Assembly (NCBI GenBank): GCA_009778785.1
Contig: WRFN01000002.1
Location: 62,001 to 126,000 of the forward strand
Length of the DNA: 64,000 nucleotides
From: Betaproteobacteria bacterium
Lineage (GTDB): Bacteria; Pseudomonadota; Gammaproteobacteria; Burkholderiales; Casimicrobiaceae
Direction: 5' to 3'
A program made the translations under genes and the position numbers. The first letter of the stretch is position 1. Each line of letters begins with the position of its first letter. Below, piece after piece: positions 47,154-49,750 of the stretch. The notes under the pieces were generated by a model. It saw only the letters and a list, made by a program, of their open reading frames with translations. It searched no databases and was not told the origin of the DNA.

Positions 47154-47338
47154 GGGATGATTTTACTACGGGGTTTGCAAGGGCGCTTCGCAGGGAATGA
47201 CGACAAACGAGATCGTCATTGGTTCCCGCTTCTTGCTTTCGCGATGACAGACTCAATGAGAATGATAAAAGCCCTTGACGCCTTCGCGTTTCTTGCGCAA
47301 AATCACTGAAATCCAAGGCGTTGGAGCCTCGGAAAAAA

Positions 47339-47430
47339 GTGACTCGGGGTGTCCGTCGGCGAACGTATGCGAGGGACTGAGAACAGACCCGCACCACCTG
47401 ATCTGGTTCATGCCAGCGTAGGGAGGTCAC
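47339..47430 (+). promoter_or_regulatory. TPP riboswitch (thi box) upstream of thiM
   Basis: GTGACTCGGGGTGTCC...GGGACTGAGAACAGACCCGCACCACCTGATCTGGTTCATGCCAGCGTAGGGAGGTCAC; conserved CUGAGA and ACCUGAUCUGGnUnAUGCCAGCGUAGGGA cores, P1 GTGAC/GTCAC. Confidence 0.95.
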
Positions 47431-47484
47431 AGCGTAATTCCTTCTGTGCCTCCTTTCAGGTAATTTATTTTTTGAGAGGATTGA

Positions 47485-48971: not shown

Positions 48972-49111
48972 AAGGCGCGGATCACGGATGGGCGCAATGA
49001 TCCATCATACATCTAGTTCACGGTTTCCCGATCCCCACGAACGGGCGGCTCTGCGTCTTTCCGCCGTCGTGACCGCAGAAAAAGATGACCTCTTTCTAAA
49101 AAAAAAGCAAA

Positions 49112-49241
49112 GGAAAAAAAACAAGAGAATGTAGCCGTGGAGGGGCGCGCACCCCGAGCTCGACTTGCGTCTTATCGGTTTCCCTCATTGGTTACCCTAC
49201 TTCCCGTCAGCGACCTCGCGACTTTCTGACGTCACGGCTAC
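49112..49241 (-). ncRNA. candidate structured non-coding RNA of unknown family
   Basis: Minus strand GTAGCCGTG [ACGTCAG..CTGACG..] GG-GTAA-CC, GG-GAAA-CC, GAC-GCAA-GTC, GGGG..CCCC, then CACGGCTAC, followed by ATTCTCTTGTTTTTTTTCC. GNRA-type loops and the T-tract both point to the minus strand. Confidence 0.5.
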
Positions 49242-49302
49242 AGCGCCAGACTACGACAATTGAAAAGGATTTGCAAGTGTCCACCATCGAAATCACCGAG
49301 CA

Positions 49303-49321
49303 GGGCGGCAGAATGCCGCCC
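49303..49321. repeat. dispersed palindromic repeat (family B) copy
   Basis: GGGCGGCAGAATGCCGCCC(CTAC); near-identical copies at 22213-22231, 33907-33926 and a variant at 9807-9825. Confidence 0.8.
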
Positions 49322-49750
49322 CTACGACCCCACCGCCGACAAATCCAGCCACCCCTCCTCTGGAGGGAAATTTCCCCTGTTGTCATTGCAAGCGAAGCAA
49401 CCGCAATAAAAACAAGGACAATGAAGCCGTCAGAGAATACCCAACCGATTTCTTCATGGAGAGTCCTTCATGTCGGCAGAAAACCGGAATCATTTTATAT
49501 CTTTTGCCGACGCCTACAACGGGGGAATAGGACAGATCGCGTCTGCCGGGGGTGCGTTGAACGGTTCTTAACCATTTGAATTAAGCCTGTCGAAGCCCCG
49601 AAATACCTCTTTCGTTCTTCGACAAAATCAGGGCGAATGGAATAAATTAGCCCTTGACAAAGGAAGCCTCTTCTATAGAATAAAATGGTTGTCATTGGCG
49701 CCTACGGCTGCCCCTTCACCCTATCATTTTTGTTCGATCAAGGAGACCGC

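Follow-up and report, generated by a model that had tools for sequence, protein, structure and literature searches.

A conserved structured RNA of Mu-like phages, encoded antisense behind gpF, as a candidate antidote to a predicted virion-borne RNase

We report that positions 49130-49242 (minus strand) of a 64,000-nucleotide stretch of Betaproteobacteria bacterium DNA (contig WRFN01000002.1; hereafter the window) constitute an ncRNA element of approximately 113 nt, referred to as W, which belongs to a family of conserved structured RNAs. Very likely, this is a genuine conserved RNA family of Mu-like phages, positioned antisense behind gpF, and W is best explained as an orphan copy of the small RNA gene of such phages. 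The association of the RNA with the MuF_C domain of gpF is computational and makes a functional link between the two likely, while a role as an RNA antidote is inferred and favoured only narrowly.

Results

Position and fold of the window RNA

W was matched by the covariance model R1 with E=2.7e-29 (W itself is in the R1 training set) and, with E=1.6e-9, by an independent covariance model, R2, built only from other phages. The original prediction, made from the sequence alone, listed a closing stem and a series of hairpins, and these stems held, all on the minus strand and in the positions proposed for them. Specifically, the closing stem P1 (TGTAGCCGTG/CACGGCTACA; 5' strand 49233-49242, 3' strand 49130-49139) comprises 10 bp, i.e. 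one pair more than the 9 bp claimed, and shows compensatory changes in related copies. The P2 hairpin (49205-49231; CGTCAG/CTGACG, 49205-49210 paired with 49226-49231) has the conserved loop AAAGTCGC and is seen in two alignments (A4 and A9). GG-GTAA-CC and GAC-GCAA-GTC are likewise present on the minus strand of W, the latter as a tetraloop hairpin (49162-49171) within the P3/P4 region (49140-49186). The predicted GGGG-TGCGCG-CCCC hairpin is not part of the comparative structure; P3 (GAGGG/CCCTC, 49140-49144/49182-49186, minus strand; invariant in A9) pairs instead, leaving CGCG at 49146-49149 free to kiss CGCG at 49217-49220 in the P2 loop (CGCG:CGCG in W). P4 (49154-49157/49175-49178, minus strand) varies with compensation in A9.

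The folding energy of W alone provided no support (z = +1.17 for the minus and +0.45 for the plus strand), and minimum free energy was dropped as evidence for W because it was not significant. Among the Rfam 15 covariance models none reached its gathering threshold for the window, L052 and L057 copies, in keeping with the original claim that the RNA belongs to no known Rfam family; the weak matches to fstAT, NPPA-AS1_1 and RAGATH-32, all far below threshold, were rejected. Integron attC, retron, hammerhead and twister elements were weighed from general knowledge only, and no matching core was seen. Whatever its function, the family is new; it lacks an Rfam match, and it was unreported in the literature that we searched, albeit not exhaustively. 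The folding energy of W is unremarkable and no Rfam family is available; the decisive evidence is the comparison of copies.

Covariation among copies

The window's own genome has four good copies, in which five pairs are compensated and 97.6% of the cells are paired; P1, for example, varies from TGTAGCCGTG/CACGGCTACA to GTGAACCGTG/CACGGTTCAC, and relatives of the same genus supply further variants. Pattern scans revealed copies in seven more phage or prophage loci, and R2 was generated from these seven only, with no sequence of the window's genus. Across the 33 pairs of the seven phage copies, including the proposed kissing pairs, 98.7% are paired and compensatory change affects 11 pairs, a level reached by 0/500 shuffles. 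R2 also matches the copies of the window's own genome, with E-values between 1e-8 and 2e-6, and it revealed additional copies on a Cupriavidus plasmid and in two further genomes of the class. Several copies have same-strand GNRA or UUCG loops. All seven phage copies have complementary but invariant kissing pairs (CGCC:GGCG), and kissing therefore remains a proposal and not a covariation result. The G-U versus A-C counts in three alignments (0:1, 5:1 and 5:4) barely favour the proposed strand.

The compact folded minus-strand RNA of the original prediction held on this comparative evidence, its transcription being predicted only, from promoter conservation; an absence of homologous intergenic copies with compensatory changes, which would have refuted it, was not encountered, as both copies and compensation were found. 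The pattern matches L049, L050, L055, L058-L061 and L063-L065 were unconfirmed by R1 and are considered to be chance matches, and a blastn match in Mycobacterium phage Kashi_RDG1 lies within genes and was unconfirmed by R2.

Location, promoter and phage origin

In the Mu-like prophages G002 and G003 the RNA fills the gap between gpF (MuF, PF04233) and gpG (Phage_tail_S, PF05069), and in the own-genome loci C1 and C14 it is likewise found behind gpF and ahead of gpG. The gpF stop codon is followed immediately by the RNA in G002, G003, C1, C14, L044, L048, L051, L052, L054 and L057, and in phages the RNA strand is antisense to the late operon. DNA methyltransferase genes were observed behind the RNA in L051, L054 and L073, before gpG where gpG is visible.

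A promoter-like site precedes W (49248-49276, minus strand) with a -10 element TAGTCT (49248-49253), a 17-bp spacer and a -35 element TTGCAA (49271-49276). Just ahead of P1, TAnnnT is present in 18/22 copies compared to 4.4 expected, and TTGnnn is often found 17 bp beyond it. On these computational grounds most copies own a sigma-70-like promoter; transcription as such is predicted only.

The 183 bp at 49127-49309 are 98.9% identical to a Mu-like phage viral contig (L044) and comprise the ncRNA, the promoter and the start of gpG, but no gpF. Over 114 nt W is identical to the L044 copy, which sits directly behind gpF, the same place as in the prophages. The gpG part is a remnant of a gpG-like virion gene, i.e. 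its first 11 codons (49277-49309, plus strand), and intact gpG homologues match Phage_tail_S (PF05069). The T-rich tract that the original prediction included in the RNA is outside the 183 bp and missing in the phage copy; this part of the prediction failed, and there is therefore no conserved terminator. The phage origin, the tie to a MuF_C nuclease-like domain and the tRNA-like layout were beyond what that prediction could see.

A second, degenerate ncRNA copy, W2 (48975-49077, minus strand; R1 E=4.4e-4, independent R2 E=1.3e-6), is placed directly behind the thiE stop, and its linker has a stretch of approximately 26 nt identical to the G002 prophage copy. Elsewhere in the window, a TPP riboswitch (47335-47441; Rfam, 66.6 bits) is located ahead of thiM, and the 24 bp at 49303-49326 (GGGCGGCAGAATGCCGCCCCTACG) are repeated exactly in the same genome (L014:8036-8059) as a separate dispersed repeat. 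Solo copies that have a promoter are W, C2, L074 and L076, and further solo copies that keep their promoter are likely to exist; it is possible that solo copies are mere decaying phage remnants. The L074 copy (L074:1-2230) borders a repeat array resembling a CRISPR array.

A DNA-level element with inverted ends, either MITE-like or a recombination site, could account for the perfect terminal inverted repeats and for the several copies per genome. We regard this as very unlikely, since the internal helices covary, a promoter precedes the RNA and the position is locked to gpF; no target-site duplication, as for a MITE, was seen.

The C-terminal domain of gpF

Phage_Mu_F (PF04233) was detected in proteins beside the RNA with E-values from 2.5e-17 to 2e-28 (four proteins), and the gpF proteins that adjoin the RNA share one kind of C-terminal domain. 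In the alignment of this domain (A12) a His, an Arg, a Lys and an Asn are invariant and NxxxT/S is present in most sequences; a His in a helix together with Ser/Thr near the C-terminus meets the criterion for MuF_C/PBECR domains. The Pfam cut-offs were not reached, with 15.0-17.0 bits versus 27.6 for PF18819 (MuF_C) and 18.1 bits versus 30 for PF18812 (PBECR3). A confident AlphaFold model of the domain (pLDDT 85) finds matches among phage minor-capsid and polyvalent "nuclease" proteins but none among solved structures in the PDB. The assignment as MuF_C/PBECR hence rests on weak profile matches, and RNase activity is a predicted property. An alignment of ten C-terminal domains was too diverse for a scan of the collection.

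In L073 a different head protein bears the tail end of the same C-terminal domain and is followed by the same RNA. At L014:7229-7534 the C-terminal domain of gpF is present once more, as an orphan beside a full gpF, a tandem duplication of a toxin-like module.

The Mu-MuF domain has been predicted to be an RNase of the BECR fold, probably active in orthologues where the active residues are intact, while Mu's own domain is inactive and probably RNA-binding; the MuF C-terminal domain is likely to be injected along with the virion (Iyer et al. 2017, PMC5512222). tRNA is a frequent substrate of BECR nucleases (PMC5512222), and immunity genes are usually situated directly behind the toxin domain (Jamet et al. 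2017, PMC5576092).

The RNA in phages chosen by protein

Phages were also chosen by protein and not by RNA. F and G are separated by 124 bp in Pseudomonas phage B3, and R2 finds the RNA antisense in this gap (E 2.9e-5); the annotated 33 aa hypothetical protein ORF34 (B3ORF34; L083:1624-1722) is encoded on the other strand from the RNA and is likely to be spurious. In the B3 relative JBD67, which has lost the His motif, F overlaps G and the RNA was not found. Among B3-like phages in viral contigs the RNA is present in 7/7 with the His-x-x-Arg motif and in 0/17 without it, and R2 confirms the RNA in L094. The motif is missing from Mu, D3112, JBD5 and Klebsiella and Shewanella phages, in which the F-G gap is small or absent and no RNA is seen; the conserved His/Arg is lost from the domain in Mu, D3112, JBD67 and others without the RNA.

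A second form of RNA, with unchanged place and strand, occurs in Pasteurellaceae Mu-like contigs; a strict pattern locates it in 65/71 loci (44 distinct copies, mostly 74-91 nt with ends set by script). This form has a canonical T-arm (CCTGTTCGAATCAGG), an acceptor-like stem and a promoter near consensus (TTGATT-17-TATAGT), and its alignment includes 76 compensated cells. In nine Burkholderiales genomes, where the choice was by protein only, all 13 MuF_C loci were judged by eye to have an antisense RNA with an upstream -10 element.

Overall, in a table of 108 loci scored with a preset pattern, the RNA was present in 77/81 motif-bearing loci and in 3/27 others. On inspection, the four motif-bearing exceptions (L127, L128, L166 and L172) have a more divergent tRNA-like RNA, and in the three RNA-bearing exceptions the motif differs at one residue; these exceptions were resolved after the fact. 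Approximately ten of the 77 loci had been located by way of the RNA and are hence not independent. Clustering at 60% identity resulted in 26 clusters (16/2 versus 1/7; Fisher p = 4e-4). In L197 and L199 (Burkholderiales) the RNA is present and the full His-x-x-Arg motif absent; the link between the RNA and the catalytic residues is therefore strong but not absolute.

Given its antisense location between F and G and its own promoter, the RNA could act in cis as an antisense regulator of the late mRNA, in its F-G part. This appears unlikely: compensatory changes keep the structure, which a perfectly complementary antisense RNA does not need, and the RNA is lost together with the active-site residues. 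In addition, other sequence or genes precede gpG in L051, L054 and many Pasteurellaceae contigs, and solo copies have no F-G target.

tRNA-like forms of the RNA

The L193 and L195-L198 RNAs have a tRNA T-arm, and the L199 RNA combines the family's P2 loop with a T-arm-like hairpin. In the tRNA-like forms the acceptor-like stem is 6-13 bp long, the D-loops are very short and a consistent anticodon loop is lacking, and in L142, L158, L161, L168 and L184 two such copies are in tandem behind one gpF. The window family did not meet the gathering score of the Rfam tRNA model (RF00005), and whether the tRNA-like and R2-type RNAs are homologous is not shown and we leave it undecided.

The Pasteurellaceae and Burkholderiales forms might alternatively be true phage tRNAs used in translation, with the window family as a degenerate relative. 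In its favour, the L198 RNA scores 32.1 bits (Rfam tRNA threshold 29; the sole RNA at the gpF position to pass) and ARAGORN assigns it the anticodon tcg. Against it, ARAGORN calls a tRNA at only two of the loci scanned (L172 and L198), and the variable stem lengths and the lack of a consistent anticodon loop do not fit; we consider this explanation very unlikely.

Discussion

The family, its structure, location, strand and promoter and its association with the domain are shown computationally. For its role we propose, as an inference, that the MuF head protein would carry the MuF_C/PBECR domain, a predicted metal-independent RNase, inside the virion, and that the RNA most likely binds and blocks this domain as an antidote or tRNA mimic. 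The RNA may adopt a four-way, tRNA-like layout with P1 as acceptor-like, P2 as D-arm-like, a variable hairpin and P3/P4 as T-arm-like elements, the P2 and P3 loops of the window family possibly kissing in a manner comparable to the D-loop/T-loop contact; such an antidote could compete for a nuclease site that takes tRNA. The interval between gpF and the RNA is too short to encode a protein. Its own promoter, independent of the late operon, could allow synthesis in lysogens while the late genes are silent, which fits an antidote because it would be needed there. The antidote would shield the producing and the lysogenic cell from own and incoming virions, and chromosomal solo copies such as W would be orphan immunity genes.

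A partner of MuF_C in another role, i.e. a virion RNA, a scaffold, a cofactor in head assembly or DNA injection, a guide or a substrate, is supported by the same RNA-domain association and by the RNA binding predicted for Mu's domain (Iyer et al., PMC5512222); the pRNA used in phi29 packaging is a model for a virion RNA. We find such a role unlikely, since phages with a degenerate domain (Mu, D3112) manage without the RNA and solo chromosomal copies with a promoter have no adjoining head protein.

Transcription, RNase activity, binding and immunity are all inferred, and the weak domain assignment, the imperfect motif rule and the lack of experimental data speak against the antidote reading; on balance we lean, by a small margin, towards an RNA that counteracts a virion-delivered RNase as antidote or tRNA mimic, rather than towards another role. 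A bolder reading, for which we see as much reason to doubt as to believe, is that Mu-like phages have a general, undescribed type of immunity in which antisense-encoded tRNA-mimic RNAs neutralise a virion-delivered RNase; the same joint claim, held with equal reserve, has these RNAs lost along with the active site of the nuclease and retained in bacteria as orphan antidotes. If true, the antidote reading would provide a partner for the widespread and functionally obscure MuF C-terminal domain and an RNA-based immunity for a polymorphic-toxin-like protein. For the long-known laboratory phage B3 the prediction is that the F-G gap is an RNA gene, on the strand opposite B3ORF34.

Comparison with known systems

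Structured RNAs in Mu-like phages are known, such as Mu-gpT-DE and other Rfam phage motifs, but none of these matches the window family. Resemblance to tRNA (RF00005) includes the T-arm (GGTTCGARTCC or GTTCGAATC), the cloverleaf order and, for most Pasteurellaceae copies, a size near that of tRNA, whereas the acceptor, D and anticodon arms are irregular in nearly all and the window family is without a tRNA match. The proposed neutralisation of an RNase by an RNA encoded next to it is shared with type III toxin-antitoxin systems (ToxIN-like). Type III RNAs are repeat arrays in front of the toxin, and the criterion of a same-strand tandem-repeat RNA in front of the toxin gene is not met: the phage RNA is antisense, behind the toxin domain, usually single-copy and four-way or tRNA-like, and a phage head protein carries the toxin-like domain as a fusion. 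The MuF polymorphic toxins (PMC5576092) and PBECR domains (PMC5512222) belong to the same protein family, and the RNA occupies the position expected of an immunity gene; however, where Jamet et al. (PMC5576092) look for small immunity ORFs, we find a structured antisense RNA.
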